Shown here piece after piece: positions 35,035-54,374 of a stretch of 64,000 bases of DNA. Each line of letters opens with the position of its first letter. Positions within the stretch are counted from its first letter, which is position 1. The notes under the pieces were generated by a model. The model made no database searches, was not told the origin of the DNA, and saw only the letters and a program-made list of their open reading frames with translations. Position numbers and translations under genes: made by a program. This DNA comes from Xylophilus ampelinus (GTDB taxonomy: Bacteria > Pseudomonadota > Gammaproteobacteria > Burkholderiales > Burkholderiaceae_C). Where the stretch lies: positions 1 to 64,000 of the forward strand of contig NZ_CABFMN010000089.1 in NCBI RefSeq assembly GCF_901875635.1. Direction: 5' to 3'.

Positions 35035-35567
35035 AGCCTTGGCTTCGAACTGGCGTGTGCATGGGCGCGAAGCCCGTTCTGGACTTCGTACCGCTGCCAA
35101 CTGCTCCCTTGGCACATGAAACACGGCAGTCCACCGGTCCTTGCTCTCGACCGCTGCGCGCCTGAGCCATCCGCCGAATACCCCCTAGGTTCAGGCTCAG
35201 CCCGCATTCGCCTGGGTTTGCCTGCGGCCCGACTCGCCCGTGTGCCCCCCGATCTGACACCCGGAGACGAAAGCTGGGCGGCATTCGTGCGCTCTGACAT
35301 GACAAAGTATCAACATGGTGCGGCATTCATCCTAGACATACACCAACGCGCGTTGAGCGATGAGAAAAATAAATCTAAAGTAGTAAATTAACGACAGATA
35401 CCCGCTTTCCAGCCGAGCTCGTGCAACACACATCTCGCGATGTTACGAAATTAGTTCACAATTTGTTCAGGATCGCTACAGACGAAATCAGGTGCAAGTC
35501 TTGCTTCCGAAATCTTTAGTAGTACCTGGATGGGAATTTGCCGAACGCGCCGCAGGAGGGCCCACTG
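35035..35567. other. AT-richer intergenic region upstream of the plus-strand exopolysaccharide block
   Basis: The first half resembles ordinary GC-rich DNA with no convincing gene; a 91-codon frame at 35116-35391 lacks a ribosome site and protein-like character. From about 35300 the DNA turns AT-rich and contains a promoter-like pair (35353-35381) and a leader of about 180 bases before the first gene. I see no terminator hairpin for metG that I would stand behind. Confidence 0.6.
35353..35381 (+). promoter_or_regulatory. Candidate sigma-70 promoter for the exopolysaccharide block
   Basis: TTGAGC (35353-35358) and TAAAGT (35376-35381) are separated by 17 bases. Each matches the consensus at four of six positions. 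It lies about 185 bases before the first gene, within the only AT-rich stretch there. Confidence 0.35.
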
Positions 35568-36242
35568 GTGAATACAGCGAGTTTCGTTGCAGAAGGGTTC
35601 GCGGTTCGCAAGCTCAGCCCGACATCGCGTTGGATGCCAATCGTCAGCCTGAGGATCAATCAACTGCTGGCGCTCATGGCCCTGGCGGCATTCAGCCCTC
35701 TCATGCTTGTCGTCAGCGCATTGCTGCTGCTGGCAGACGGCTGGCCCCTGTTCTACGGCCACTACCGCGTCGGACAGGATGGCCGTCTTTTCAGGTGTCT
35801 CAAGTTCCGTACGATGCGCCGCGATTCCGACCGGTTGCTGCGCGAGTTGCTTGCCCGTGACGCTACCGCCAGGGAAGAGTGGGCCAGGGACCAGAAGCTG
35901 CGACGCGACCCGCGGGTTACTTCTATCGGGCATTTTCTACGCAAGACGAGCCTGGACGAACTCCCCCAACTGTGGAACGTCGTGCGCGGCGAAATGCGCC
36001 TTGTGGGGCCGCGGCCGGTGACTGTGCCGGAGCTGAACCGTTACGGCCGCGTCCGCTGGCACTATCTCAGCGTGCCCCCCGGCATCACAGGCCTCTGGCA
36101 AGTCAGCGGTCGCAACGACACCACGTACGACGAACGTGTTGCTCTGGATCGCGAGTACGTCGAAAGCCGCTCGCTCTGGCTCGACGCCAGCATCCTGCTC
36201 AAAACCATCCGCGTCGTGCTGTTGCGCGAAGGTGCGCGCTAG
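35568..36242 (+). CDS. Undecaprenyl-phosphate sugar-1-phosphate transferase (initiating enzyme)
   Basis: The start is GTG at 35568, with AGGAGG eight bases before it. The 224-residue product has one N-terminal membrane segment (about 28-52) and the bacterial sugar transferase domain: YRVGQDGRLFRCLKFRTM, RKTSLDELPQLWNVVRGEMR with LVGPRP, and PPGITGLWQVSGRND. It transfers a hexose-1-phosphate from UDP-sugar to undecaprenyl phosphate on the cytoplasmic face, the first step of repeat-unit assembly. It is the short ExoY-like form, without the four extra N-terminal helices of WcaJ. Its stop overlaps the next start by one base. Confidence 0.92.
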   Translation: MNTASFVAEGFAVRKLSPTSRWMPIVSLRINQLLALMALAAFSPLMLVVSALLLLADGWPLFYGHYRVGQDGRLFRCLKFRTMRRDSDRLLRELLARDATAREEWARDQKLRRDPRVTSIGHFLRKTSLDELPQLWNVVRGEMRLVGPRPVTVPELNRYGRVRWHYLSVPPGITGLWQVSGRNDTTYDERVALDREYVESRSLWLDASILLKTIRVVLLREGAR

Positions 36243-37390
36243 TGGGGCCGGCCTCAGTCACCGCCAAGGCGCACACCGGTGCAGCCTCTGCTAATCAACA
36301 CGTTCTGCATGTCGTCGGCGCCGTCGCCGATGAGGTCCACAGCTTTCTGGCGCCGGCGTGCCGAGTGCTTGCCCAGTCGGGAAGGCAGCAGTCGATCCTG
36401 TTCGTCGAAACCCCGGACCTCGAGCACAACGTTCGGCTGCTCACAGACACCGCCCGCCTTGTGGCCGTAGGCGGGCCATCAAGCCGTATCAGCCGTTGGA
36501 TGGCCTTGTCACGCGTCTGCCTCGCCGAAATCAGGAGAGGCGAGCTGTCTGCCGTTCACGCACACGGCATCATTCCTTGCATACTGGCCAGCGTCATCGT
36601 TCGAAGCGAAGGTGCACGCGTGCCGATCATGTACACGCCACATGGATCACGTTCACTCGGGACGCTGCGCCATTTCGGCAAGCTCGCCATGCTGCTGGCA
36701 CGCCCCTTCGTGCGGCCTGGACGCAGCGCTGCTATCGTGACAGTGCCGCGCGAGAAGGCGGATTTTCGCGGGTGGGCGAATACGGAACTCATTGAGGCGC
36801 CGGTACATCAAGCGTACTTCGATGCTGCCCGCAAACCGCCCCCGAATCAGCCGCTAATCATCACAGGCGGACGCAGAACGCCAGCACGCAGCGCGGACAT
36901 CTTCGCCCAGCTGGCAGTGGTTCTCAGCGCTGAAGAACTTGGATTGCGCTTCGAATGGCTGGGCGCCGCGAGCTCAGCATCGCAGTTGCGCCTCGCCGCC
37001 GCCTCGGTCTCCCTGGTGCCGGTGGACGATGACCCGTCGTGCGCCGATCACATGGCCAGGGGCTGGCTCTATGTCGCACCCTGGTTCACGCGAGGATTCC
37101 CACTCTTCCTCGTCCAGGCGATGGCAGCTGGACTTCCATGCGTCGCGCTGGACTGCGAGCAGCACCGTGAGGTGATCGAGGACGGCCTCACCGGATTCCT
37201 CTGCGCCACCGAACAAGAGATGGTTCGGCGGATCGCACAACTTGTCGACGACAAGTCGATCCGATCGCGCATGGGGCAAGCTGCGCGCGATGCAGTTGCG
37301 CTGCGATTCAGCGAGGAGGAGTTCGCGCGACGCCTCCTCTCCACCTATCGCGCCTGTACTCAGGCAAGCGCATCGCCCCCGGGCCGCTGA
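36242..37390 (+). CDS. Glycosyltransferase, GT4-like, GTG start
   Basis: The 382-residue product starts at GTG 36242, overlapping the previous stop as TAGTG. The N-terminal half has HVLHVVGAVADEVHSFLAPA and AVHAHGIIPCILAS, then MYTPHGSRSLG; the C-terminal half has FPLFLVQAMAAGLPCVALDC and EVIEDGLTGFLC, the donor-binding motif of GT-B fold GT4 enzymes. It should add one sugar to the lipid-linked repeat. Sugar specificity cannot be read from sequence. Confidence 0.85.
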   Translation: MGPASVTAKAHTGAASANQHVLHVVGAVADEVHSFLAPACRVLAQSGRQQSILFVETPDLEHNVRLLTDTARLVAVGGPSSRISRWMALSRVCLAEIRRGELSAVHAHGIIPCILASVIVRSEGARVPIMYTPHGSRSLGTLRHFGKLAMLLARPFVRPGRSAAIVTVPREKADFRGWANTELIEAPVHQAYFDAARKPPPNQPLIITGGRRTPARSADIFAQLAVVLSAEELGLRFEWLGAASSASQLRLAAASVSLVPVDDDPSCADHMARGWLYVAPWFTRGFPLFLVQAMAAGLPCVALDCEQHREVIEDGLTGFLCATEQEMVRRIAQLVDDKSIRSRMGQAARDAVALRFSEEEFARRLLSTYRACTQASASPPGR

Positions 37391-37406
37391 GTACAGACAA
37401 CCTGAC

Positions 37407-38543
37407 ATGCAAGCACGTCACGATGCCACCATGCACATGGTGACCGACATGGATTCGCTCGCGCGCTGCCGGGATCTGCGCGACCTAGAGAAAGTGCTCA
37501 TTCAAACCGAGCGTCTCAAGTATCGCGGACTTCTTCCCTGCGCCCTGCGCTATGCGGTATGGGCGGTGCGCCAAGGCGGCGTCATCGAGATCCAAGACCA
37601 TGGACGTTTGGACGCATCCTCGCCCGCCTTCGAGTTCACCTTCAACAACGTGCGTCGCTGCGTCGCCAGGTTCTGCAGCCGCGACACCGACCTTGTGGAT
37701 TTGGCTCCGGGTCTGATCCGCCTCCGACGACGTTCGCAGATCCTGCCTCCGGGTTGGAGCGCGGGTATCGTGTTCTCGGGTCGGGATGAGGAAATCCCCA
37801 CGCTCATGAACTGCATAGCGGGCCTCGAGCGGCAGCCTGAACTGCGCCGGGATCGGGGGGGTGAGATCGTGGTGTGCGGTCCGCAGCGCGATCTGGGATT
37901 CCTGAAGTCCCACCCCGCCGTCCGCTACTTCGTTCATGAGACACCAGACGCACCGCAGTTGATGATCTGCCAGAAGAAGAACGCGCTGATCCGCCAGCTC
38001 GCCGGGCCGCGCATCGCCGTGCTCCATGCCCGCATCGTGCTCGACGAAGACTGCCTCGCGGCCGTTCCTCGCGAGTTCGACATGATCTCGCCAAATACCA
38101 GCGTCCTTGAGCGTGGACGCCGCGTGCCATACCTCTCGCTAGGCCAGACAGATGCCGCCCACGCAGGCCGGATGCCGCGCGCGATGGGCCGCACCATGCG
38201 AGTGCTCCGAGACGGCAACCCGCTTCGAATGCACGAGCATGCGCCTCTGTTCATTGACGGCGGCGCCTTCTTCGTGAGTCGCGACCTGCACGTGGCCTGT
38301 CCGCTGGACGATGCCATTGCCTGGCAAGACGCCGAGGATGTCGATTGGTGCACGCGCGCGTTTTCGCAGGGGTTCCTGATCGATCTCGCGCCAAAGGCCG
38401 GTGCGCTTTCGGCGACGAGCAAGATACGGGCGCTTCCAGCGCTGGGCCCGATGACGTGGCCCATCTACCGAGCCCATCGATGGGCCCGCGACCTGCGTGC
38501 CGGCGCGCGTCACTGGGCGCTGACCTTGAAAGGCGAACGGTGA
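37407..38543 (+). CDS. Putative glycosyltransferase (GT-A-like)
   Basis: The 378-residue product lacks membrane segments. The central part has GIVFSGRDEEIPTLMNCIAG, GGEIVVCGPQRDLGFL and ARIVLDEDCLAAVP, which follow the order of a GT2-like GT-A fold (nucleotide-binding loop, then an acidic D-E-D as possible metal motif). Near the C-terminus DAEDVDWCTRAFSQGFLIDL matches the E-D-x-D-W acceptor-site region of such enzymes. I am sure it is glycosyltransferase-like, less so of the family. The ATG at 37407 is the first of three candidates (37407, 37431, 37449). Confidence 0.7.
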   Translation: MQARHDATMHMVTDMDSLARCRDLRDLEKVLIQTERLKYRGLLPCALRYAVWAVRQGGVIEIQDHGRLDASSPAFEFTFNNVRRCVARFCSRDTDLVDLAPGLIRLRRRSQILPPGWSAGIVFSGRDEEIPTLMNCIAGLERQPELRRDRGGEIVVCGPQRDLGFLKSHPAVRYFVHETPDAPQLMICQKKNALIRQLAGPRIAVLHARIVLDEDCLAAVPREFDMISPNTSVLERGRRVPYLSLGQTDAAHAGRMPRAMGRTMRVLRDGNPLRMHEHAPLFIDGGAFFVSRDLHVACPLDDAIAWQDAEDVDWCTRAFSQGFLIDLAPKAGALSATSKIRALPALGPMTWPIYRAHRWARDLRAGARHWALTLKGER

Positions 38544-39838
38544 GTGCCTCCAGGCGTGCGTCCCTGAGCTATTTCGCGCTGAAGGCGACGAATCTCGGCG
38601 TGGCAACCGCCTGGAGCTTCGCACTCATCTTCGTACTGATCCGTCGCATGCCGCTGGCCGACTATGCCTCCGTGGTCGTGGTTACCGCGCTGGGGGCATA
38701 CCTCATGGCATGTGACCTCGGAATGTCCAATGCAGTCTATGCGCGAGCCCGCACGCAATGGCTTCAGTCCGGCCGACTCGAGGGCCATGCACTGCGGTTC
38801 GGCACCGCCGTCCTCGGCGCCTATTGCGTGCTCACGGTGTTCGCCATCGGCGCCTTCACGGCGCTGGCGCATGCCCTCCCCATCGGCGCAGGCATGCTTC
38901 CGAACGCATTGTCCGTTTACTTCGCAGCACTTTCACTGGCGCTGCCATGGTCGGTCGTGCGCGCACTATTGGCAGCGACGGATCGGTTCCTCGCGTTCGA
39001 GATTGTCGAGTTCGGGCGTCGAATCATGAGCTTGGCGCTCGTGCTCGGCCTCTACTTCGACTTGTCGTTCGCTGCCTACTCCTGGTGCCTCCTTGCGGCT
39101 TGGGCCGCGGCCCTTGTCATCCTTTCCAGTCGGCTGTCCAGCGTGACAAGCTGGCGCACGCTGCGGTCGTTCGGGGCGTGGAAGGAGGCTTTCTCCGGAC
39201 AGTGGGGGTTGGTCAGACAGTCGGGCAACTTCTCCTTGCTGGAATTTCTGGTGTTCAACTTTCCATACCTGCTGCTACCGACGCTATTTGGTGCAGGCCA
39301 CGCCATCGTCGCCTTTGATGTCTTCAACAAGATCACACGATTCGGCGCCCAGTCCAACATCGTCACCTTCGAAGCGCTGCTGCCGATGAGCACCCAGGCG
39401 CTGCATGCGGGCGAACATGCCCGTTGGCGTAGCATCACGACGACTGCTTTGGCAATCTCGCTGGTCTCGGCGTGCCTGGGCTCCGTGTTCGTCCTTCCTC
39501 TGGGCGATGCGACCTTCGGACTGCTGCTGGGAGATGCCACCCTTGTGCCCTTCTGGCTGCGCATCTGCATGGTCGCCATGCTGCTGGCGGATGCATTCCG
39601 CGCCGGGGGCGCGCTGCTGATGCTCAACCTTGGCAGGGTGTCCCGTCTTCTTCCATTGTCCTTTGGCGGGGCCGCCGCCTTTGCCACGCTCACCGTCGTG
39701 GCAGGCGTCGGCGGTGTGGGGTTCACGGGCTTCATGGCCGCCTACGTCGTCATCTTCGCCGTGACCTCCCTCCTCTATTTCCACCGCATGTTTGCATCGG
39801 TTCGTCAGGCTGCCCCCGGCGAGCCCTGCACATCTTGA
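38540..39838 (+). CDS. Polysaccharide flippase (Wzx/MATE-like), GTG start
   Basis: The 432-residue product starts at GTG 38540, overlapping the previous stop as GTGA. It has about 12 hydrophobic helices spread over the whole length and the Wzx-like opening SLSYFALKATNLGVATAWSF. It should move the undecaprenyl-linked repeat across the inner membrane for polymerisation by the Wzy-like protein at 49455. An N-terminal Arg-rich stretch precedes the first helix, as usual for this family. Confidence 0.85.
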   Translation: MSASRRASLSYFALKATNLGVATAWSFALIFVLIRRMPLADYASVVVVTALGAYLMACDLGMSNAVYARARTQWLQSGRLEGHALRFGTAVLGAYCVLTVFAIGAFTALAHALPIGAGMLPNALSVYFAALSLALPWSVVRALLAATDRFLAFEIVEFGRRIMSLALVLGLYFDLSFAAYSWCLLAAWAAALVILSSRLSSVTSWRTLRSFGAWKEAFSGQWGLVRQSGNFSLLEFLVFNFPYLLLPTLFGAGHAIVAFDVFNKITRFGAQSNIVTFEALLPMSTQALHAGEHARWRSITTTALAISLVSACLGSVFVLPLGDATFGLLLGDATLVPFWLRICMVAMLLADAFRAGGALLMLNLGRVSRLLPLSFGGAAAFATLTVVAGVGGVGFTGFMAAYVVIFAVTSLLYFHRMFASVRQAAPGEPCTS

Positions 39839-39844
39839 GCTTGT

Positions 39845-41557
39845 ATGCTGCCCCCAAAAGTGCCGATTCCACAAATCGTCATTCCCATGTCAGGCTTCGG
39901 CGAGCGCTTTCGTCGTGCGGGCTATCGCCTGCCAAAGCCCCTCATTCCGGTCGACGGCCGCCCCATCATCGAGCATGTGGTGGACATGTTTCCGGGCGCA
40001 GAGAACTTCGTCTTCATCTGCAGCCAGGAACACCTGGACAACGCCGACTATCGGATGCGCGAGACGCTCGAGCGCATTTGCCCGACCGGCAGGATCGTCG
40101 GGATACTGCCGCACAAGCTCGGCCCCATCCACGCCGTGCTGCAGGCCACGGAATTTCTCGATCCGGATCGCCCGGTGGTCGTGAACTACTGCGATTTCAG
40201 CTGCTATTGGGATTGGCACCATTTCGTCGAATTCGTCAGGGGGAGCCACTGCGACGGTGCGGTTCCCGCGTACCGCGGCTTCCATCCGCACAGCCTCGGC
40301 ACCACCAACTACGCGTACATGCGCGAGTCGGGCGGATGGATGCTCGACATCCAGGAGAAACAGCCTTTCACCGACGATCGCATGCAGGAATATGCCTCCA
40401 GCGGCACGTACTACTTTCGGTCCGCGAGGCTGATGGCGACCGCCTTCGACGAAACGCTCAGCGAAAATCGGCACGTAGGCGGCGAGTTCTATGTGAGCTT
40501 GGCGTACAAAAGCCTGCTGCGTCAGGGCATGCGGGTGGCGGTCTATGAGCTGCAGCACTTCTTGCAATGGGGAACACCGGCGGACTTGGAGGAATACCAG
40601 AACTGGTCGAACGCTTTTCAGTCGCTGTGTGAGCACGCCCCGGTGCCGGCTATCGAGGGCGCGGCCGCCGTCTTTCCCATGGCTGGCATGGGCGAGCGCT
40701 TTTCGCGCGAAGGCTACACGGCGGCCAAACCATTGATCCAGGTTTCTGGCGAACCGATGGCCGTTCAGTCCGCGCGGGACTTGCCGACAGGCACGCATCG
40801 TTCGTTCGTCCTGAGGGCAGACATGCCCGGCGCGGCCGTTGTCGCCCAACGGCTGACGGAGGCCTTTCCCGGCGCGGTCATCGTGACCATCGCCGGAGTG
40901 ACCCAAGGCCAGGCCTGCACCGCGCAAATTGGGCTGGACGCTTTGAAAGAAGTCGCCGACGACGCGCCCGTCACCTTCGGTGTGTGCGACGCAGGTGTGC
41001 TGTACGACAAGCAGCGCTTCGTTGCCCTCGCGAACTCGCCCGACTGGGACGTGGTGGTATGGACGCGGCGAGGTCATCCGCATGCGGCGCGAAACCCGCA
41101 AATGTATGGATGGATCGCAGAACAGCAGGGCGTGATCGAACGCGTGTCGGTGAAGGTCCCGCTGTCCGATCCTCTACACGATCCCATCGTTCTGGGCATC
41201 TTCACATTCCGGAACGCACGGGTGTTCAGGTGCTGCCTCGAGCATCTGCTTGCCCGTGACGGCAAGGTCAACGGCGAGTTCTATTTGGACAGCGTCGTTC
41301 AGGACGCGATCGAACTCGGGTTGGTTTGCCGGACCTTCGAAGTCGATTCCTATTTCTCCTGGGGAACGCCCAACGATCTGAGGACCTTCGAATACTGGCA
41401 ATCGTGCTTCTCGAAGATGGCTTCGCATCCCTACGAATTGGCAAAGGACCAGCGGATTGCGCCGCAGCAGATTTCTGCCCTCCAGCGCCGGTACGCGCCG
41501 GTGCTGCCAACACTCCCGGACCTTGCGAACCTACCCCAAACCCATCCGTCCGCCTGA
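39845..41557 (+). CDS. Tandem sugar-nucleotidyltransferase-like protein (two fused domains)
   Basis: The 570-residue product holds two similar nucleotidyltransferase domains. Domain 1 (about 9-262) starts IVIPMSGFGERFRRAGYRLP followed by KPLIPVDGRPII, has an acidic VVNYCDF near 117 and ends LQWGTPADLEEYQNWSNAF. Domain 2 (about 274-530) starts AVFPMAGMGERFSREGYTAA then KPLIQVSG, has FGVCDAGVLYD, and ends FSWGTPNDLRTFEYWQSCF. Both keep the G-x-G-x-R loop and the lysine of the K-P-L-I block, so both could be active. Such enzymes join a sugar (or other) phosphate to an NTP. A tandem form is unusual. It opens the unassigned cassette of this locus. Confidence 0.8.
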   Translation: MLPPKVPIPQIVIPMSGFGERFRRAGYRLPKPLIPVDGRPIIEHVVDMFPGAENFVFICSQEHLDNADYRMRETLERICPTGRIVGILPHKLGPIHAVLQATEFLDPDRPVVVNYCDFSCYWDWHHFVEFVRGSHCDGAVPAYRGFHPHSLGTTNYAYMRESGGWMLDIQEKQPFTDDRMQEYASSGTYYFRSARLMATAFDETLSENRHVGGEFYVSLAYKSLLRQGMRVAVYELQHFLQWGTPADLEEYQNWSNAFQSLCEHAPVPAIEGAAAVFPMAGMGERFSREGYTAAKPLIQVSGEPMAVQSARDLPTGTHRSFVLRADMPGAAVVAQRLTEAFPGAVIVTIAGVTQGQACTAQIGLDALKEVADDAPVTFGVCDAGVLYDKQRFVALANSPDWDVVVWTRRGHPHAARNPQMYGWIAEQQGVIERVSVKVPLSDPLHDPIVLGIFTFRNARVFRCCLEHLLARDGKVNGEFYLDSVVQDAIELGLVCRTFEVDSYFSWGTPNDLRTFEYWQSCFSKMASHPYELAKDQRIAPQQISALQRRYAPVLPTLPDLANLPQTHPSA

Positions 41558-41571
41558 GTAATCACAACACC

Positions 41572-42168
41572 ATGAAGTACATCGCCCACCGCATCAACAC
41601 CGTCGAGCAGCTTCGTTCCTCGCCCGTGGGGTATGGAGTGGAAGTCGACATCCGCTCCAAGGGCGACGAGTTGATCATTCATCACGATGCGTTCGCCGCC
41701 GGAGAGAACTTCGAACGCTGGATCGAAAGCTATCGCCATGGAACCCTGATTCTCAACGTCAAGGAAGAGGGGCTGGAGAAGCGGCTGTTGGCATTGATGG
41801 CCCACCGCGGCATCGAGGACTTCTTCTTTCTCGATCAATCGTTCCCATTCCTCATTAAGACTTGCCGAGAGGGAGAGCGCAGATGCGCTGTTCGCGTGTC
41901 CGAATACGAAACGATCGAAACGGCAATGGCGCTGGCAGGAAAGGTGGAATGGGTGTGGGTGGATTGCTTCACCCGCTTTCCGTTGTCAGGCGCGCAGGCA
42001 CGCCTTCTGCAGGCAGCCGGCTTCAAGCTTTGCCTCGTGTCTCCGGAACTCCAGGGACGCGACGCGGCAACCGGGATCGCCGAGATGCACGACCTGCTGC
42101 AACGCGAAGGCATTCAGGCTGAAGCGGTGTGTACCAAGCGTCCGGAGCTGTGGGGCGGCACCGCCTGA
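41572..42168 (+). CDS. Glycerophosphodiester phosphodiesterase-like protein, short
   Basis: The 198-residue product shows the first strands of a PI-PLC/GDPD TIM barrel: MKYIAHRIN, GYGVEVDIRSKGDELIIHHD and TLILNVKEEGLEKRLLALM, with the His-Arg, Glu-x-Asp and His-His-Asp sites in place. Full GDPDs are about 240-300 residues, so part of the barrel or its insertion is missing. It might cleave a phosphodiester or bind a phosphorylated intermediate. The start ATG at 41572 follows the nucleotidyltransferase stop by 14 bases, and its stop overlaps the next ATG (TGATG). Confidence 0.65.
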   Translation: MKYIAHRINTVEQLRSSPVGYGVEVDIRSKGDELIIHHDAFAAGENFERWIESYRHGTLILNVKEEGLEKRLLALMAHRGIEDFFFLDQSFPFLIKTCREGERRCAVRVSEYETIETAMALAGKVEWVWVDCFTRFPLSGAQARLLQAAGFKLCLVSPELQGRDAATGIAEMHDLLQREGIQAEAVCTKRPELWGGTA

Positions 42169-44093
42169 TGCTGGCGATCTGGCTGCGGCAGCCGATGTTC
42201 TGGGTTGGCACGGCACTGCGGATCGCCGCGATCGCTGTCGTCCTGGCCGCTCATGGACCGTTCAGTCTTCCCGGCACGGCCATCCCTCCATTGGCCCCGG
42301 CCGGCCCCCTGGCGGACTGGTTCGTGACCGCGCTGGCTGCGAGTGGCCAACATGACGGGACGATTGCCTTGTCTGCCGTTGCGGCAGCCACACTGATTGC
42401 GGATCTGGCAATGCTCGCCGCGCTCCGAAGCCTTCTGGATGTGGGCGAGCGGCGGCTCCTGCAGCTGTACTGGCTATCGCCAGCGGTGCTTTTGGTTGCC
42501 TACCCGCAGCTTGCCTTCGCCGATCTGACGGGAGCGGCGCTCCTTTGCTGGGCGCTCGCTTGCACCCGCCACGACCGTCCGCTACAGGCCGGGTACTTCG
42601 CCGCGCTCTCTCCAGCACTGTCGTTCACCGGCGCCTTTGCAGTCCCGCTTTTCCTCATCTACTACTTCAGAAATCCGACGCGGCGGGCGCAGCTCTCCCG
42701 TTTCGCAGCAGGCCTTGCTGCGGCAGGGCTCCTGGGCCTGATCGTTTGGCTCCCACTGCTGAGTGGGGACTTGATCGCCTCGGACACCACAACCTGGCAC
42801 GAGCAGATTCTGAGCCTCGGTATCTCGACAGGAGCCGGACAAGCCCGCATTCAGGTCGCACCGGTGGTTTACATCCTATGCCTGTTCGCAACTTGGCGCA
42901 TGCGACGCATAGGCCCAGATCTTTTCCTCATCCTATGCGGGCTGATGTACCTGATCCTATCGATGGCCGCAGGCTTGCCGGCCGCCTGGATCCTCTGGGC
43001 AGTTCCGATGCTGGTCTACGTCTGCTCCGAAAGCGGTACCGTCTCGATCGGCCTGACCAACATCCTGGCAGCACTGTACGTGGCCGCCGGCGCTGAAGTG
43101 GCTCCCGACGTCGTGCCTGCCCTCGCCTTTGCCGCCTGCCTGGTGATAACAGCCTCCATCTGGCGCTACAACGTACAGCGAAACGACTTCCTTCGCATTG
43201 CACGCAAGCCGGTCGTGATCGGAATCGCAGGTGATTCGGGCGCTGGCAAGGACACTTTGGTCGACGCCATCGCACACCTTTTCGAGGACCGATCCGTGGT
43301 GCGCCTGTCCGGCGACGACTACCACTTCTGGGATCGCCACAAGCCGATGTGGCGCGTGATGACTCATCTCAATCCGCGAGCGAACGACCTAGGCAAGTTC
43401 GCGCGAGACCTTATTGCGCTGGCCGATGGCAAGGGCATCGTATCGCCGCACTACGACCACGGCAGCGGGCGCATGAGCCGCCCCATACAGACGCAGAGCA
43501 GCGATGTGATTCTTGCGAGCGGGCTACACGCGCTTTACCTGCCGATATTGCGAGACGCCTATGACCTGTCCATCTACCTGGACATCGATGAAGGCCTGCG
43601 TCGTTTCCTGAAGATCAACCGCGACGTCAAGGTTCGTGGCCATTCGCTCGAGCGCGTTCTCACCGCCATTTCCGAACGCGAAGCCGATGCGGGTCAGTTC
43701 ATCAAGCCTCAGCGAGACCACGCTCAGCTCGTGCTATCCCTGCTTCCGACCAACCCCCGGCTGCTGGAAACAGCAACCGACCCTTCCGAACTGCGATTCA
43801 GACTTCTCGTTCGTTCTCCGCACGGCTTCCACGAAGACGCCCTGGTGCGGTCGTTGGTGGCGATCTGCGGACTGCATGTGGACGTTGCTCTGGACGGGGA
43901 CAACTCCACCGTCGAAATGCGCATCGAAGGAGAGACTCACGCCGAAGACATTGCCCTGGCTGCCAAGGCCCTGGTTCCCCAACTGCTGCCATTACTGAAG
44001 CGGCCACCGCGATGGCATGACGGCATTACGGGCTTGATGCAACTGATTGTTCTCGCCCACCTCAACGAAGCCGTCCGGCGGCGACTGCTATGA
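42168..44093 (+). CDS. Polytopic membrane protein fused to a uridine kinase/PRK-like P-loop kinase
   Basis: The 641-residue product has two parts. Residues 1-335 contain about ten hydrophobic helices with a loop pattern reminiscent of GT-C mannosyltransferases (LLQLYWLSPAVLLVAYPQLA; a long polar loop around 200-230). Residues 345-641 are a kinase domain: Walker A IGIAGDSGAGKDTL (351-364), SGDDYHFWDR at 381-390, then LASGLHALYLPILRDAYDLS and an R-E-A-D lid. This matches uridine kinase/phosphoribulokinase proteins. A fusion of a polytopic membrane domain with such a kinase is one I do not recognise. It could phosphorylate a lipid- or membrane-delivered hydroxyl compound. Start and stop both overlap neighbours. 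Confidence 0.75.
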   Translation: MLAIWLRQPMFWVGTALRIAAIAVVLAAHGPFSLPGTAIPPLAPAGPLADWFVTALAASGQHDGTIALSAVAAATLIADLAMLAALRSLLDVGERRLLQLYWLSPAVLLVAYPQLAFADLTGAALLCWALACTRHDRPLQAGYFAALSPALSFTGAFAVPLFLIYYFRNPTRRAQLSRFAAGLAAAGLLGLIVWLPLLSGDLIASDTTTWHEQILSLGISTGAGQARIQVAPVVYILCLFATWRMRRIGPDLFLILCGLMYLILSMAAGLPAAWILWAVPMLVYVCSESGTVSIGLTNILAALYVAAGAEVAPDVVPALAFAACLVITASIWRYNVQRNDFLRIARKPVVIGIAGDSGAGKDTLVDAIAHLFEDRSVVRLSGDDYHFWDRHKPMWRVMTHLNPRANDLGKFARDLIALADGKGIVSPHYDHGSGRMSRPIQTQSSDVILASGLHALYLPILRDAYDLSIYLDIDEGLRRFLKINRDVKVRGHSLERVLTAISEREADAGQFIKPQRDHAQLVLSLLPTNPRLLETATDPSELRFRLLVRSPHGFHEDALVRSLVAICGLHVDVALDGDNSTVEMRIEGETHAEDIALAAKALVPQLLPLLKRPPRWHDGITGLMQLIVLAHLNEAVRRRLL

Positions 44094-44869
44094 CACGAAT
44101 CCATAGACCCGAGCGCCTTGCTCGAATGCCTGATGCCGTGCTTTTCGACACGGACAACACGCTCTACCCCTACGATCCATCACATCATCGAGCGATGGAA
44201 GCCGTGCGCAGCAAGGTGGTCCGCTCCATGTCAATCAGCGAGGCGACCTTCGACTCGGCCTTTGCGGCAGCACGAACTGAGATCAAGCAGCGGCTCAAAG
44301 GCACGGCAGCTTCACACAATCGGCTTCTGTACTTTCAGCGCATGCTGGAGCTCATCGGACTGGGCTCGCAAGTGCTCGTGGCACTCGATCTTGAGCAGAC
44401 GTACTGGCGCACCTTCCTGAGCGTGGCTGAGCTCTTCGAAGGATTGAAGGAATTTCTGGACGATCTACGCCTGGCGGGCGTTCCGACCGCAATCGTTACC
44501 GATCTGACGGCCCAGATCCAGTTTCGCAAGATCGTGTACTTCGGCCTCGACCAGTACTTCGATCACATCGTCACGAGCGAAGAGGCCGGCTTCGACAAAC
44601 CCAATCCCGGTCCTTTCGAGCTCGCAATACAGAAGATGAAAGTGAGCTCGGATGCGATTGTCTGGATGATCGGAGACAACCAGGCCGCGGACATCGCCGG
44701 TGCGCGGCGGGCGATCTCGGCAGTGACTCTGCAGAAATTGCATGCCGGCGTCACCGAAGGCACTGGAGAGGAGCAGCCTGACATGAGCTTCGAGCACTTT
44801 GATCAGCTGCGACTTCTGATCAAGCGCCTTCAGCCCGTGCAGGACCAAGGGATGAAGACCCATGCGTGA
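44090..44869 (+). CDS. HAD superfamily (IA) phosphatase
   Basis: The 259-residue product has HAD motif I in LFDTDNTLYPYD (Asp20 nucleophile, Asp22), a helical cap domain after it (about 30-110), motif II in IVTDLTAQ, the Lys of motif III in GFDKPNPGPF, and motif IV in IGDNQAADIAGA. It should dephosphorylate a small phosphorylated metabolite. It starts inside the previous stop (ATGA) and its end overlaps the aldolase start by eight bases, so all cassette enzymes are translated as one unit. An internal ATG at codon 13 is a possible start. Confidence 0.88.
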   Translation: MTRIHRPERLARMPDAVLFDTDNTLYPYDPSHHRAMEAVRSKVVRSMSISEATFDSAFAAARTEIKQRLKGTAASHNRLLYFQRMLELIGLGSQVLVALDLEQTYWRTFLSVAELFEGLKEFLDDLRLAGVPTAIVTDLTAQIQFRKIVYFGLDQYFDHIVTSEEAGFDKPNPGPFELAIQKMKVSSDAIVWMIGDNQAADIAGARRAISAVTLQKLHAGVTEGTGEEQPDMSFEHFDQLRLLIKRLQPVQDQGMKTHA

Positions 44870-45860
44870 AGAAATCCAGGCGCTCAGCGCTCGACTCGGC
44901 GCCGACCCCATGCTGGTGCAGGGCGCAGGTGGGAACATTTCTTGGAAAGAAGACGGGCGGCTTTGGGTTAAAGCATCCGGGGCTCGGATGCAAGACGCAT
45001 TGGTACGAGATATTTTTGTGCCAGTCAACCTGAAGCAAGCACGCGATCCTCTGGCTCCGGCGCGCGTCGATCCTATCTGGAATAGGGTCGCGAGCCTTCG
45101 TCCATCTATCGAGACATCGCTGCACGCGCTGATGCCACAGCGCGTAGTTGCTCACCTTCATAGCGTCGACTTCATGTCGCGATTGGTTCGCCGATCCTGC
45201 CGGGAGTTATTGAACGATCTTCTACGCGATCGTCGCCATGCTCTCGTGCCATACCACAAGCCGGGCACGGACCTTGCGGCTTCGGTACACCAACTAGTCC
45301 GAGAGCAGCCAAACGCGGACGTGCTCCTGCTCACCAATCACGGGATCGTGGTTGCTGCCAATTCGGCTGAGGAGTTAGATCTCAGGCTTACGGAACTAGT
45401 TTCTAGTCTTGCAAACAACATAAGGCCCATCGCTCGGGCTGCTCTTACAGCCCAGTCGGCGGCACCACATGGCTATCGTCGGCCAGCCGACCCCGCAGTG
45501 GATGATCTCGCGCTCGACGCAGTCACTTTCGACTTCGCGCAAAAGTGCTGGGCGATCACGCCAGACCATGTTGTGTTTCTTGGCGCGAGCTCTAACGCAT
45601 TGACCGACCGGCCCGAAAGGGCGTCAATCGGCGCGCCGTTGGAATTCTTCATCGTCCGGGGCGACGGCGTGTTCATCAGAGATGACGACGCGCATCGAGC
45701 AAACATGATCGAGGAGATGCTGCGTTGCTACCGTGACGTGGCGGTACGGATCGACGACCTCTCTGACGTGGCTCTGCTCAAGGACCACGAGGTGATGGAC
45801 CTTTTGGGATGGGAAGCAGAGCAGTACCGACAGAAGCTCAACGGCGTGGTCGGTCGGTGA
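44862..45860 (+). CDS. Class II aldolase/adducin family protein
   Basis: The 332-residue product opens with a phosphate-binding loop (QGAGGNISWK, then WVKASG) and keeps the zinc-site ligands of fuculose-phosphate aldolase-type enzymes: His98 and His100 in VVAHLHSVDF and His160 in LLTNHGIVVAA. A Glu84 in RPSIETSLH fits the catalytic glutamate. It is longer than the usual 210-230 residues: about 120 C-terminal residues form an unrecognised extra domain. It may split or build a phosphorylated polyol or keto-sugar in the cassette pathway. Confidence 0.82.
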   Translation: MREEIQALSARLGADPMLVQGAGGNISWKEDGRLWVKASGARMQDALVRDIFVPVNLKQARDPLAPARVDPIWNRVASLRPSIETSLHALMPQRVVAHLHSVDFMSRLVRRSCRELLNDLLRDRRHALVPYHKPGTDLAASVHQLVREQPNADVLLLTNHGIVVAANSAEELDLRLTELVSSLANNIRPIARAALTAQSAAPHGYRRPADPAVDDLALDAVTFDFAQKCWAITPDHVVFLGASSNALTDRPERASIGAPLEFFIVRGDGVFIRDDDAHRANMIEEMLRCYRDVAVRIDDLSDVALLKDHEVMDLLGWEAEQYRQKLNGVVGR

Positions 45861-45874
45861 CGGAGGCGCCATCA

Positions 45875-47011
45875 GTGCGTGACAAGTTCAACGTTCTATA
45901 TTTTGTCTACAACACAGAGGACGCGGCGGTCATTCGACGCGTCAAGATGTTCGAGGCCGCAGGGTTGAGGGTGCTGATTGCAGGGTTCAGGCGCCGCGAA
46001 GAGCCGGTGAACATGATCAGCCAGTCCCAAGTTGTGGACCTAGGAAGGACATTCGACGCAAAGCTCACAGGCAGGCTCGGCTCAATCGCCCGCTCCGTGC
46101 CGCGGGCGATTGCTTTGGGACGACATGTCTCGCCGACAGGCTCAATCGTGGCCCGCAACCTTGAAGCACGACTCCTCGCCACGGCCGCACGTTGGAATCC
46201 AAGCGCCAGATTGGCCTCGATAGCTTACGAGGTCTTGGACATCCATGCGTCGCTGACATCAGGCGGGTGGAAGTCCGCAGCCCTCCGATGGATCGAGAGA
46301 AGACTGCTGCGGTCAAGCACTCACCTCGTCATCAGTTCTCCCGCTTTTGTTTCCAGCTACTTCGCTCCGGCCCTGCATGCCTCGCATTCCGTGGTACTTG
46401 TAGAGAACAAAGTTTTCCAACCAGCCCCTTGCGCCGGCCCTGCGCCAAGGCGAGAAATTGGTGCGCGACCGATTGCAATCGGCTGGCACGGCATTCTTCG
46501 CTGCCGAAAAAGCCTTCTATTGATGCTCGCCATGACCGCAGAATGTCCCGGCCGATTCCGAATTCACATCAGCGGCCGAGTTGCGGCAACAGCAATACCA
46601 GACTTCGCCCAACTCATCGCAGGTAGGGCTGATGTCGTCTTTCATGGCCCATACGATTCGCGATCAGGGCTGACCGCCTTGTACCGCCGAATCGACTTCA
46701 TGTGGTCGATTGACTACTTCGAAGAGGGGAAGAATTCGGTGTGGCTCCTACCGAATCGGCTATATGAAGCTTGCCTTTACGGTGTAGTGCCTATTGCCTT
46801 GGAGGGAACACAGACTGCAGCTTGGCTGCAAGAGCGGCGTTGCGGCGTCATTGTGGACTCCGACAACATCGGGGCCGTAACGCAAACGCTCCTCGAGGCA
46901 AGTCTGGAATACTCAACGCTGCAGAATGACGTTTCGAGTTTGCCACGAACTGATGTTGTTGCGACAAGGGACGAGTGCATGCGACTGGCAGCGGCGTTGC
47001 GGATAACTTAA
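45875..47011 (+). CDS. Glycosyltransferase, GT4-like, GTG start
   Basis: The GTG at 45875 is chosen because GGAGG lies eight bases before it; an upstream GTG at 45857 overlaps the aldolase stop. The 378-residue product has FNVLYFVYNTEDAAVIRRVK at the N-terminus and, in the C-terminal half, GWHGILRCRKSLLLMLAMTA and PNRLYEACLYGVVPIALEGT, the acceptor/donor pattern of GT-B enzymes. It is the last gene of the plus-strand block; the next gene is convergent, 43 bases away. Confidence 0.8.
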   Translation: MRDKFNVLYFVYNTEDAAVIRRVKMFEAAGLRVLIAGFRRREEPVNMISQSQVVDLGRTFDAKLTGRLGSIARSVPRAIALGRHVSPTGSIVARNLEARLLATAARWNPSARLASIAYEVLDIHASLTSGGWKSAALRWIERRLLRSSTHLVISSPAFVSSYFAPALHASHSVVLVENKVFQPAPCAGPAPRREIGARPIAIGWHGILRCRKSLLLMLAMTAECPGRFRIHISGRVAATAIPDFAQLIAGRADVVFHGPYDSRSGLTALYRRIDFMWSIDYFEEGKNSVWLLPNRLYEACLYGVVPIALEGTQTAAWLQERRCGVIVDSDNIGAVTQTLLEASLEYSTLQNDVSSLPRTDVVATRDECMRLAAALRIT

Positions 47012-47054: not shown

Positions 47055-48368
47055 TCAGCGTCGGTGTAGTGCTCCTACGATACGTTCAAGCAGGCGCTCT
47101 GCAAGCCGAGGTCGGTAGTCCCTCTTATAGTCGACCGCCGCGGTCGCAACCTCCGGCAGCGGCTTCAGTTGTTCGAAAGTGGTCGACGGCACAACTACCA
47201 CGCCTGATGGCCCCGCACGCTGAATCAACAAGGTCAATTCGTTGAGATGCAACAAGAAGTCTGGCGGCATCGGTTGAGGCCGGTTTTCACTGAGAGCGCG
47301 AAGCATTTCGGCGACACCTAGAAATTTGTCTTGCGCATAGATCTCCCGCCTCCTGAGCCAACTCACCAAGCGGTGTTTGAGAGATCTCCCCACGTTGCGC
47401 TCGCTCTCTACTGCGTGCGACTTCCATCGCCTCATGAGCTTCAGCCTGATGCCACCAACATTGAAGATACGACCCACCAACGGTTGATTTCGGACCGTAT
47501 AGGATTTGCGTGCGCTCAGCCCAACTCGGGAAAAGCGCTCAAGGCGCAAAGCAGTCTGGTCATGAAATGCATTGTCTGCCGAGAGCTCGCCCTCGTCTCC
47601 CACCACACGGAACCGATGATCGCGGGGAGCGACCCAAGAGCACGTGACCCTAGCCGCGCGCCCGCCTTCGAAGGTCAGGCAAGCCACGGAGAGATCTGGC
47701 GTGTCAGAGGGGTTCAAAGGAACATCAGTCTTCTTGTCAATGAGTGTTGTCGAAAACGCAGTTAAAGATTTCACCGGGCCAAAGAGGGCGCATATCCATA
47801 CCAAGTGGTAGGCAACATGCTCGACCGTACATCCTTCTTGCAGTTCTTCTGCATAGGGAAATGGTGCTCCAGTGGGACTTTGGACTTGCTCCAAATGCAT
47901 CAAATGGGCTGGGTTGTCATCAAGCTCGGCGTAGATTAACACCGGCTTTCCCACAGCGCCGTCTCGGACGGCTTTCCAAAGAGTGCTGATTGCGTCGCTG
48001 TATAAATTGCATGGGGCGCCGGTGAGCACCAGTCCTCTGCCGTTCGCCAGTTCAAACAGCTCGCGCGTCTGCGCTATGTCGACCGTGACGGGCTTTTCGC
48101 TATACACATGCTTGCCGGCAACCAGGGCAAGTTTTGTGGTTTCGAAGTGAGATCGAATGCTCGTCAGATTGACCACCACTTGTACGGCCTCGTCAGCGAG
48201 CAGCATCTCGTAACTCGCATACTGACGCAGGCGATAGTGATTCGCCACGGTTGCCAATCGGTCGGTATCGATGTCGTATACGCCAGCGATTTCGATCTCG
48301 TGATGGGCCCAATATGTGCGCATGTAAATATCGAACACATAGCCGCAACCGACGAATGCGATCTTCAT
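47055..48368 (-). CDS. Gfo/Idh/MocA family NAD(P)-dependent oxidoreductase
   Basis: The 437-residue product has a Rossmann start MKIAFVGCGYVFDIYMRTYW, the conserved YSEKPVT (E-K-P motif) and a C-terminal alpha/beta domain with TVEHVAYHLVWICALFG containing the likely catalytic His. These enzymes oxidise or reduce (nucleotide-)sugars or inositols. About 80 extra C-terminal residues (Arg-rich linker, then MLRALSENRPQPMPPDF) extend beyond the typical 350. It follows the next oxidoreductase gene by one base, so both may act on one substrate. Confidence 0.88.
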   Translation of the reverse strand: MKIAFVGCGYVFDIYMRTYWAHHEIEIAGVYDIDTDRLATVANHYRLRQYASYEMLLADEAVQVVVNLTSIRSHFETTKLALVAGKHVYSEKPVTVDIAQTRELFELANGRGLVLTGAPCNLYSDAISTLWKAVRDGAVGKPVLIYAELDDNPAHLMHLEQVQSPTGAPFPYAEELQEGCTVEHVAYHLVWICALFGPVKSLTAFSTTLIDKKTDVPLNPSDTPDLSVACLTFEGGRAARVTCSWVAPRDHRFRVVGDEGELSADNAFHDQTALRLERFSRVGLSARKSYTVRNQPLVGRIFNVGGIRLKLMRRWKSHAVESERNVGRSLKHRLVSWLRRREIYAQDKFLGVAEMLRALSENRPQPMPPDFLLHLNELTLLIQRAGPSGVVVVPSTTFEQLKPLPEVATAAVDYKRDYRPRLAERLLERIVGALHRR

Positions 48369-48369
48369 A

Positions 48370-49458
48370 TCAGCTTTCCCTCTTGAGTTGCTTGTACATG
48401 CAGTCGAGGACGGCATCAGATGTCGATGCAATCGCAATGCTTTCATTCAAGGACATGACGGAACTTTCGGTTGCCCCTCGCTTCATGCATGCATGTACCT
48501 CAAGGACCTCATGTTCATACCCATTACCGGAATAAAAGCGAGACGCTTGCGATGCGGGCGCTCGGCCGTTTCTATTCACTCGTTGCGCCAACTGGTGAAG
48601 CCAATGGTTTTGTCGTAGTCGAGCTGCTCGCCCAATCGCTCCAGCTCCTGCTTGGGGGCCTAGCGGCGCCTCATGGTGCCAGATCCAGCCGTGTGGCCGC
48701 ACGATCGTCCCTTTGAGTGAAAGCATCCCGTCGGTTCCCATGACGTGGAGGTCGTCTGGTGCCCAACTACGTAGACTTACAGCGAATGAGCCAAGGACAT
48801 TTCCGGGGTAGCGAAGCGTGATCAATGCGTCCTCAACGACTTCGGACTCCCCGAAATTGCCATCCGCGGAAATTCTGACGGGCTGCCCGAACAACCATTG
48901 CCCCCATGAAAGCGGATAAGACCCGAGATGCGTCAACGCTCCGCCCCCAAGTGCGCGGCTATAGAGATTGTTCCGGGGGTCAGGCCGCTGGGAGGACCCA
49001 AAGCTCCCGCGGATAAGACGAATGCCTCCAACATCCCCGTCCATCACCTTTGCCTTGAATTCTTGTGAAGCGGGCAAGAATCTTGTCCACAGACCTTCCA
49101 TTGCAAATACCGAACGCTTCGCTGCGGCTTCAGCTATTGCCTGGGCATCACGGGCACAAGTCGCCATGGGCTTCTCGATGAGAACCGACAGTCCAGCTTC
49201 TATGCACATCAGGGCATGACGAAAATGTTCGCTCGGGGGTGTTGCGATGTACACAACATCGACTGAAGCATTGCGAGCCGCCTCAACATACGGTGCTATG
49301 AATCTCGGGATCCCGTGGGCGGATGCAAATCTCGACGCCGAATCAATGGTGCGCGACGCCACCCATTCAACGTGCGCGCCATCTACTCGACTGAGCGCCG
49401 CGACAAATTTTGAAGAGATGGATCCAGTGCCAAATATCCCCCACCGAATGCGCATCAT
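48370..49458 (-). CDS. Gfo/Idh/MocA family NAD(P)-dependent oxidoreductase
   Basis: The 362-residue product begins RWGIFGTGSISSKFVAALSR (nucleotide-binding Gly motif), has VLIEKPMATCARDAQAIAEA with the E-K-P lysine, and GGGALTHLGSYPLSWGQWLF. It resembles dihydrodiol/glucose-fructose oxidoreductase-type members. The start overlaps the polymerase stop; either of two adjacent ATGs (49458, 49455) could be used. With its neighbour it likely makes an oxidised or epimerised sugar nucleotide. Confidence 0.9.
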   Translation of the reverse strand: MMRIRWGIFGTGSISSKFVAALSRVDGAHVEWVASRTIDSASRFASAHGIPRFIAPYVEAARNASVDVVYIATPPSEHFRHALMCIEAGLSVLIEKPMATCARDAQAIAEAAAKRSVFAMEGLWTRFLPASQEFKAKVMDGDVGGIRLIRGSFGSSQRPDPRNNLYSRALGGGALTHLGSYPLSWGQWLFGQPVRISADGNFGESEVVEDALITLRYPGNVLGSFAVSLRSWAPDDLHVMGTDGMLSLKGTIVRPHGWIWHHEAPLGPQAGAGAIGRAARLRQNHWLHQLAQRVNRNGRAPASQASRFYSGNGYEHEVLEVHACMKRGATESSVMSLNESIAIASTSDAVLDCMYKQLKRES

Positions 49459-53027: not shown

Positions 53028-54374
53028 CTACGAAGGCGGCAAGCCCACCTTTTCGTAAGCGCGGACCCAGTCGATGTCCAAGCTGGCCGGCAGGACATGA
53101 TCGTCCACGCCGTACCGGCCTGCCCATTCCCCACCGACAGCCAGGTTGAGCAAGATGTAAGCCTTAGCCGCAACCCGTCCATCGTCATAGCGCCAGGGGT
53201 ACTGCCGCTCCACGATCTTCTTGCCATCGACATACGTCGTCACCGATTGCTCCGTCCATTCCGCACCGATCGTGTGCCACCCCTCGTCGAACCGGTAGGG
53301 TGCCTTCCAAAAAGTCCATTGCCGGTTGAACGCCGGGTCGGAAAAGACGAAACCCGGATCCTGCCCGGCATGCAACGCCACACCCGTGTGCAGCATGTCG
53401 GGGGTGTCCTCTACTCCGTTGTTCACGAATTCGAAGATGTCGATTTCGGGCGGCCACTTGTGCGTACCATCCGACGCCACATCGGAGTTGAGCCAGAACG
53501 CGGGAAACACCCCTTTGGCACGTGGCATGCGAACGCGGGCTTCGAAATAGCCGTAGCGCGCGGTCCAATCCGATCGGATCATCCCTGAGGAATAGCGCCC
53601 CGCCCCGATCGGCCGCGCAGTCAGCCGCAGCACACCGTCGCCCATCACATGGTTGTCGTCATCGCGATATCGCTGCTGCTCGTCCTTCAGGTGATCCAGC
53701 GTCTCGCTCTCGTAGATAAGGCGAGTGAACCATTTACTTCTGTCGAGCGCTGGGCCGTCGAACTCGTCGTTGAATACCAGACGGTAGCCAGGAGGAACAT
53801 GGGAATGCTCTTGGCTCAAGACGGGCTGGGTCTTTGCGATCGGCCCCCTTCGCGACAGTTCGACCGACAAGACGCGAAGGTTGTGTCCGTCGTTGCTTCG
53901 CAGCCGGACTTCGGGCAGGCGCGTGAAGGAAGGCGCTGTAAAGGAAACCTCGACCTCGCGTGCGTTCCCTTCGAACACTGTCTTGTGCGAGCGAATGCTC
54001 TGCTGCCACTCCGGGACGCGAAATATGACGGCTGCGTTCCCGGCGGCGGAGCCGCCCGCCAGACGGACTGTCAGTCGGTAGGCCACATCCGGTTGGACGG
54101 CCGCCGCGGACAGGCGCTGCCAGAGCTCGCGACCTTCCGCGACGGGCTCACCGCGCGCGCCGACTCGGTCGAACCTGCACGCGCCTTCGCATTGCCATGC
54201 CGCCGGTCCGGCAGCGAAGGTGCCGTTGGCTATCAAACCCAACGGGCTATTCGGCGACATGCCTCTCGCGGCTGGTGTCGGATCGGCCGCTTTGGCCGCA
54301 GCCCCGGACGTCACGGCACCGACGAACAACAGTCCGCCCAAGCACGATCTGGCCAGAGCGCTGACCGCACTCAC
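53028..54374 (-). CDS. Secreted GH16 family glycoside hydrolase, GTG start
   Basis: The 448-residue product starts at GTG 54374, which overlaps the stop of the glycosyltransferase (GTGA). A signal peptide runs to about Ala30 (RSCLGGLLFVGAVTSGAAA). Residues 45-180 form a carbohydrate-binding-like beta sandwich. Residues 195-448 are GH16: FNDEFDGPALD, then the catalytic ExDxxE motif at E310-D312-E315 in PPEIDIFEF. GH16 enzymes cut beta-1,3/1,4-glycans. In an export locus it probably trims or releases the polymer in the periplasm or outside. Confidence 0.9.
   Translation of the reverse strand: MSAVSALARSCLGGLLFVGAVTSGAAAKAADPTPAARGMSPNSPLGLIANGTFAAGPAAWQCEGACRFDRVGARGEPVAEGRELWQRLSAAAVQPDVAYRLTVRLAGGSAAGNAAVIFRVPEWQQSIRSHKTVFEGNAREVEVSFTAPSFTRLPEVRLRSNDGHNLRVLSVELSRRGPIAKTQPVLSQEHSHVPPGYRLVFNDEFDGPALDRSKWFTRLIYESETLDHLKDEQQRYRDDDNHVMGDGVLRLTARPIGAGRYSSGMIRSDWTARYGYFEARVRMPRAKGVFPAFWLNSDVASDGTHKWPPEIDIFEFVNNGVEDTPDMLHTGVALHAGQDPGFVFSDPAFNRQWTFWKAPYRFDEGWHTIGAEWTEQSVTTYVDGKKIVERQYPWRYDDGRVAAKAYILLNLAVGGEWAGRYGVDDHVLPASLDIDWVRAYEKVGLPPS

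Follow-up and report, generated by a model that had tools for sequence, protein, structure and literature searches.

What do five adjacent genes inside an exopolysaccharide locus of Xylophilus ampelinus make? The genes occupy positions 39,845 to 45,860 of a 64,000-nucleotide stretch, called the window below (contig NZ_CABFMN010000089.1, assembly GCF_901875635.1). An earlier note, made from the sequence alone, had taken them for a dedicated pathway to an activated unit or a phosphodiester-linked decoration of the polymer. The cassette consists of the following genes:

39845..41557, + strand: tandem nucleotidyltransferase, 570 amino acids (PF12804/PF00483, NTP_transf_3/NTP_transferase)
41572..42168, + strand: GDPD-fold protein, 198 amino acids (fold of the AlphaFold model)
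42168..44093, + strand: fusion of a GT-C-fold membrane domain and a phosphoribulokinase-like kinase, short form (Pfam PRK; predicted fold)
44090..44869, + strand: HAD phosphatase, 259 amino acids (Pfam HAD hydrolase; NCBIfam best match)
44862..45860, + strand: class II aldolase family protein, 332 amino acids (PF00596, Aldolase_II; RhaD-type best matches)

The coordinates and junctions given in the earlier note were confirmed: in gene order, the genes are joined by a 14-base gap, TGATG, ATGA and an 8-base overlap. The enzyme classes it named also hold, four of them through Pfam and NCBIfam and the phosphodiesterase-like protein through the GDPD fold of its AlphaFold model. We find that the cassette is a real, conserved and tightly coupled set, scattered among bacteria and uncharacterised. 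It very probably builds a unit for glycan synthesis. The full scheme set out below, in which the five genes make up the donor-making half of a conserved module for surface glycans, has in our judgment close to an even chance of being right.

Does the set occur as a set elsewhere? Co-occurrence had been proposed earlier as the check on a dedicated pathway, and its absence as a reason to doubt one. It turned out that 11 other kinase-bearing genomes or plasmids hold all five core families, in one genome on separate contigs, which lends good support to a pathway devoted to an activated unit. The 11 records are a Marinagarivorans metagenome-assembled genome (L001), an E. coli IncR plasmid (L003), an Azospirillum brasilense plasmid (L006), a Hirschia baltica plasmid (L024) and seven more carrier genomes (L014, L015, L016, L017, L021, L022 and L023). 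A fragmented genome, G002 (L002, L008, L009), in which aldolase and nucleotidyltransferase share one contig and kinase and HAD another, and the variant L032 were left out of this number. Within a single stretch of 20–31 kb, GDPD, HAD and GT2 proteins are present in all 11 records, the nucleotidyltransferase and the aldolase in 10 each, and GtrA in 9; since the records were found with kinase or aldolase as bait, these two families are selected for in the counts. The GT2 proteins of these relatives are of the polyprenyl-phosphate type. In genome G059, the nucleotidyltransferase and aldolase are missing from the cassette stretch and are located on other contigs. The genes do not keep one order, and some arrangements are split or divergent, which points to functional linkage rather than to recent descent of one block.

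Genome-wide counts show the same coupling. Of 398 Pseudomonadota genomes, 5 encode the kinase (E <= 1e-40), the seed genome G001 among them. By class, it is present in 4/369 genomes of the class of G001 (again with G001) and in 3/48 of the class of G012, all three within the five Pseudomonadota carriers; it was found in 0/197 genomes of the order of G348, in a search run without a positive control. The GDPD protein (E <= 1e-10) occurs in 7 of the 398 genomes, including all 5 with the kinase, and the co-occurrence has a hypergeometric probability of 1.5e-8 with G001 dropped. The two GDPD genomes without the kinase are those of a variant cassette (G016) and of a distant locus (G348).

Several observations on the relatives deserve mention in their own right. 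The whole cassette, accompanied by GtrA, GT2 and one more protein, lies on small E. coli plasmids (L003 6022-14984, NZ_CP145712.1; and NZ_JCAPUP010000005.1), which come from human stool and a bullfrog and show 100% identity across the 8,963 bases that were compared. Among the matches listed, the E. coli plasmid cassette is nearest to proteins whose few named sources are the betaproteobacteria Orrella and Crenobacter. On the Hirschia plasmid, a UDP-glucuronic acid decarboxylase family gene sits between a GtrA and a GT2 (L024 11923-12876). The nucleotidyltransferase homolog of G059 (L036, contig C33, 10164-11834) contains an in-frame TGA and is a pseudogene or reflects a sequence error.

Which unit might the cassette build? 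The third protein, labeled a membrane-kinase in the earlier note, is indeed a kinase of the phosphoribulokinase (PRK) type, but its membrane part has a GT-C glycosyltransferase fold that had been missed. In the predicted structure, this ALG6/PIG-M/ALG3-like domain spans approximately residues 1-345 and is followed by a full-length PRK-like kinase (approximately residues 346-641), whose PRK fold is complete, C-terminal part included, and for which PRK structures are the top matches in both sequence and fold comparison. Kono et al. 2017 (PMC5241800) list PRK residues that bind ribulose 5-phosphate (His, Arg, Tyr, His, Lys) and ATP (Arg). Their counterparts, placed via sequence alignment to 6hzk and residue spacing, are H386, R390, Y429, H431, K482 and R485, each invariant in 46/46 kinases. 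These 46 comprise 35 picked from the window and two homology lists, plus 11 locus copies; the lists hold the best 120 of 1,397 and the best 120 of 1,814 proteins, the remainder of which may include ordinary kinases. The likeness to Calvin-cycle and archaeal PRKs thus covers the complete fold and all six listed contacts, whereas the fusion to a GT-C membrane domain, the location in a glycan locus, the GKD P-loop and a score under the PRK07429 cut-off set the cassette kinase apart. We think it probable, with modest confidence, that the kinase acts on a pentulose phosphate.

For the HAD phosphatase, the best NCBIfam model is ribulose-1,5-bisphosphate 5-phosphatase (NF053830; 179.9 bits, E 5.8e-53), which is also the top model for the HADs of both relatives tested, L001 and L003. 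Together, a PRK-like kinase and a ribulose-bisphosphate-phosphatase-like HAD point to a pentulose. The earlier reading overlooked this pair, as well as GtrA and GT2 in the relatives, and had considered the compound unreadable from sequence; a pentulose can now be predicted, although the sugar is predicted only. The aldolase is RhaD/FucA-like, with RhaD-type best matches in NCBIfam. PF00596 covers residues 6-177 (59.8 bits, passing the cut-off of 22.2), an extension of about 140 amino acids follows the Pfam domain at the C-terminus, and the PSIET, H-x-H and NHG motifs are kept in 12/12 aligned sequences. In the non-carboxylating pentose bisphosphate pathway of halophilic archaea, ribulose-1,5-bisphosphate 5-phosphatase yields ribulose 1-phosphate, which is then cleaved by a FucA-type aldolase (Sato et al. 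2022, PMC9700705). The cassette shares with that pathway a HAD resembling this phosphatase and a class II-type aldolase. In the archaea, however, the bisphosphate derives from ribose-1,5-bisphosphate and is then catabolised, whereas the cassette adds a PRK-like kinase, an NTP-transferase and glycosyltransferases, and its aldolase scores far under the ribulose-1-phosphate aldolase model.

The remaining two proteins bear on activation. The nucleotidyltransferase consists of two homologous NTP-transferase domains (approximately residues 1-265 and 266-570), both of which retain G-x-G-x-R-F and the pairs Lys31/Lys295, Asp117/Asp382, Lys172/Lys437 and Glu214/Glu478, presumably catalytic residues. 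These positions are invariant in 13/13 aligned homologs except Phe286 (12/13), and their retention in both halves makes two activation steps possible. The protein also matches RmlA and GalU models weakly, far under their cut-offs. The 198-residue second protein gave no Pfam or NCBIfam match at E 0.01. Its AlphaFold model has a GDPD fold, with a pLDDT (predicted local distance difference test) of 93.3; the closest structures are glycerophosphodiester phosphodiesterases, and relatives are named as GDPD family in NCBI annotation. It is possibly a cytoplasmic phosphodiesterase, cyclase or mutase.

Sequence and predicted structure show which protein families are present, that they are conserved together, that the fused protein has PRK and GT-C folds and that its PRK positions are invariant; from this we infer the following enzymatic steps. 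The PRK domain would take a pentulose 5-phosphate, with D-ribulose 5-phosphate the likeliest, and phosphorylate it at C1 to give the 1,5-bisphosphate, from which the HAD would strip the C5 phosphate, leaving pentulose 1-phosphate. Kinase and phosphatase would in effect shift the phosphate from C5 to C1; a free C5 hydroxyl permits ring closure, so that a furanose could form here. The ADP- and GDP-heptose pathways share with the cassette the succession of kinase, bisphosphate phosphatase and nucleotidyltransferase, but the enzyme families differ and the substrate here is probably a C5 sugar. The aldolase might reset stereochemistry by retro-aldol/aldol reaction, or drain or supply the pentulose-1-phosphate pool, while the tandem NTP-transferase would add the nucleotide. 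The GDPD protein would process a phosphodiester intermediate, possibly by way of a 1,2-cyclic phosphate through which the phosphate reaches the anomeric carbon. In a speculative scheme with two activations, a nucleotide placed on C1 would be followed by GDPD-type formation of the 1,2-cyclic phosphate, its hydrolysis to an anomeric phosphate and the second activation. In the relatives, GT2 would then load the sugar onto undecaprenyl phosphate, GtrA would flip it, and its attachment outside would fall to the GT-C domain or to a neighboring GT-C protein. In its boldest form, the proposal is that ribulose or xylulose is activated with a nucleotide here, by a pathway that would be the first of its kind for a pentulose, in which PRK makes ribulose 1,5-bisphosphate for glycans and not for carbon fixation, the phosphatase leaves the 1-phosphate, and the tandem nucleotidyltransferase and GDPD protein move activation to the anomeric carbon for pentulofuranoses such as the xylulofuranose side chains that certain O-antigens carry; this we put forward tentatively, as a possibility.

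The window itself appears to encode a reduced version. In ten of the 46 kinases (the window's and P0002-P0010), the GT-C half has none of its three conserved loop motifs, WYxPF, [DN]PW and AFPYG, which are found in 36, 33 and 33 of the other 36, respectively. Moreover, no cassette-type GtrA or GT2 homolog was found in the 64-kb window (best blastp E 0.02; no profile match). We read this version as having lost its export arm, with the GT-C fold kept as a pseudo-GT-C that looks non-catalytic. Given the missing GtrA and GT2 and the lost motifs, the product probably feeds a cytoplasmic transferase: the nucleotide donor would serve there as it is, with the transferase encoded at 45857-47011 as a possible user, before Wzx/Wzy-type assembly. 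PIG-U of the glycosylphosphatidylinositol transamidase (chain U of 8imx), a GT-C fold not known to have transferase activity, differs in that the cassette domain is fused to a kinase. With the Gtr three-component system of periplasmic glycosylation (GtrA, GtrB, GT-C), the cassette relatives have GtrA, GT2 and GT-C partners in common; unlike that system, the cassette brings its own donor pathway and has its GT-C fused to the kinase, and the window lacks GtrA and GT2.

The variant cassette of G016 (L032) offers a further pointer. Its GDPD protein is 60% identical to that of the window, its tandem nucleotidyltransferase 26% to the nearest cassette homolog, and its GT2 35%. One 1,293-residue frame combines an unrelated kinase-like P-loop domain (so labeled from the P-loop and weak family matches only), a class II fructose-bisphosphate aldolase-type domain and a ribulose-phosphate 3-epimerase, and a HAD of another, unrelated subfamily is close by. 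Against the rest of G016, the cassette HAD and aldolase gave weak or partial matches only (E 9.9e-4 and 4.4e-10). As judged by these assignments, a trio of kinase, phosphatase and aldolase thus recurs from different families, together with a ribulose-5-phosphate/xylulose-5-phosphate epimerase, which would point to pentulose phosphates. Beside the variant cassette, a minus-strand gene (L032 10732-12516) encodes a small-molecule kinase-like domain (EcKL/APH) fused to an inositol-monophosphatase-family domain. The G348 locus (L033, 3909-11057) is a polysaccharide locus of another kind, which combines a small protein that looks like a cupin, a single-domain nucleotidyltransferase, a distant GDPD protein and a beta-phosphoglucomutase-like HAD, near ABC-transporter-like genes; GDPD, nucleotidyltransferase and HAD may therefore form a wider theme.

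A number of points weigh against the proposed pentulose pathway. The kinase P-loop reads GKD (45/46 kinases) where PRKs have GKS, so that its Walker A motif does not end in GK[ST], and family scores fall short of curated NCBIfam cut-offs: 186.8 bits against 236 for PRK07429, the 179.9 bits of the HAD against 330 for NF053830, and 15.4 bits for the aldolase against 300 for the ribulose-1-phosphate aldolase model NF053831. In the GDPD protein, the usual third metal ligand looks replaced by Lys64, and its chemistry may be unusual. A polyprenyl-phosphate GT2 should need an anomeric leaving group, while pentulose 1-phosphate is activated non-anomerically, so that an unproven phosphate shift has to be assumed. 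The epimerase/aldolase variant is known from G016 alone, the fusion occurring in 0 of the other 47 genomes of its class, and the absence of GtrA and GT2 is paired with a degenerate GT-C half at one locus. L-xylulose side chains are found in Yersinia enterocolitica O:10 (PMC11380512), and the published cluster for this xylulose-bearing polymer, as far as the excerpted source gives it, lists none of the cassette genes. Finally, aldolases related to that of the cassette occur in sugar-catabolic operons of Aminobacter and Sinorhizobium plasmids, which speaks for a pentose module of catabolic or housekeeping character whose place in polysaccharide loci is incidental. The fused GT-C domain, tandem nucleotidyltransferase, GT2, GtrA and glycan-gene neighbors make such a module very unlikely.

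Other rivals accept a role in glycan synthesis. Kinase and HAD could act on an aldopentose 5-phosphate (ribose or arabinose 5-phosphate) to give a pentose 1-phosphate and then a nucleoside diphosphate (NDP)-pentofuranose, with the aldolase as epimerase; ADP-heptose synthesis follows the same logic, from bisphosphate through dephosphorylation to nucleotidylation. The GT2 and GT-C partners would fit without any phosphate shift, and 4/4 GT2s scanned match the undecaprenyl-phosphate aminoarabinose transferase ArnC, weakly and far under the cut-off. Periplasmic addition of aldopentofuranoses is, moreover, already known, in a route from phosphoribosyl pyrophosphate (PRPP) through polyprenyl phosphoribose synthase, a MATE flippase and GT136 (Kelly et al. 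2024, PMC11127046). That system resembles ours in that a pentose-type sugar is presumably attached on the outer side, by way of undecaprenyl phosphate and with the help of a GT-C enzyme. It starts, however, at PRPP and not at an NDP-sugar and uses the synthase and MATE flippase; families of this route had no match among the five cassette proteins in Pfam or NCBIfam. With the conserved PRK substrate residues and the ribulose-bisphosphate-phosphatase and RhaD-type relatives pointing to ketoses, we consider an aldose donor unlikely, if credible. The cassette might instead convert pentulose 1-phosphate to a CDP-ribitol-like NDP compound that is transferred as a sugar phosphate and edited or recycled by the GDPD protein. 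The NTP-transferase would then use the non-anomeric phosphate directly, and a GDPD-fold protein is at hand; yet GT2 in 11/11 and GtrA in 9/11 relatives indicate glycosyl rather than phosphoglycosyl transfer, although a phosphoglycosyl transferase may lie among the neighboring genes, a few of which were scanned for families. Of the two outcomes envisaged in the earlier note, the glycosyl donor is the better supported, and a phosphodiester decoration seems quite unlikely. Less likely again is an aldolase working in the synthetic direction, joining dihydroxyacetone phosphate and an aldehyde into a branched or unusual sugar whose phosphate kinase and phosphatase relocate before activation. The main cassette and the L032 variant both have an aldolase, from unrelated families, but no conserved extra gene would supply the aldehyde: in a comparison of 13 loci, at the sensitivity used, every other family was confined to 2 at most.

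The relevant neighbors in the surrounding locus are:

35538..36242, + strand: initiating sugar-phosphate transferase (PF02397, E 1.9e-59; NCBIfam best match of WbaP type, below cut-off)
38345..39838, + strand: candidate Wzx flippase (judged by eye from its position and hydrophobic sequence; no Pfam/NCBIfam match)
45857..47011, + strand: glycosyltransferase, weakly GT4-like (PF13579, E 3e-4, below cut-off; no NCBIfam match)

Further glycosyltransferases are encoded around the cassette, as are a GH16 glycanase, a chain-length protein resembling EpsF (below cut-off) and a protein that matches Wzy weakly; on the basis of sequence, we read the whole as a Wzx/Wzy-type exopolysaccharide locus. The candidate flippase frame stops 6 bases before the nucleotidyltransferase gene, and a possible GTG start of the downstream glycosyltransferase at 45857 overlaps the aldolase TGA at 45858-45860. 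That glycosyltransferase is possibly translationally coupled to the aldolase and is a candidate user of the cassette product. The five genes had been regarded earlier as translated in one unit; their coupling stands, but since frames abut or overlap on both sides, they do not form a transcriptional boundary and the operon looks longer. The reported absence of RmlABCD, Ugd, GalE and Man genes agrees with 28 scanned proteins, part of the window's open reading frames, among which no such model reached its curated cut-off (10 of the 28 were scanned with NCBIfam at E <= 1e-10 only); it is in this sense partly checked. Elsewhere in the locus, a 433-residue protein between a glycosyltransferase and the flippase candidate (37242-38543) has no Pfam/NCBIfam match and is possibly an unrecognised glycosyltransferase. 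On the opposite-strand half lies an adjacent pair of Gfo/Idh/MocA oxidoreductases (47055-49458, - strand), for which Pfam and NCBIfam gave no curated function at cut-off. The GH16-family glycanase (53028-54728, - strand) is a candidate for polymer trimming.

In the openly licensed literature, judged by title and abstract opening, we found no publication that describes this set or assigns its genes to a sugar pathway; the same literature, where covered in part, yielded no assigned genes for pentulose synthesis in bacterial glycans. The cassette also provides annotators with a marker for proteins currently labeled 'uridine kinase'. PRK is textbook Calvin-cycle chemistry, and here it is joined to a GT-C fold and travels with nucleotidyl- and glycosyltransferases. 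The reduced version in the window suggests a way in which a periplasmic glycosylation module may be converted into a cytoplasmic one. If the proposed scheme is true, it would provide a biosynthetic route for pentuloses, sugars known in bacterial glycans.

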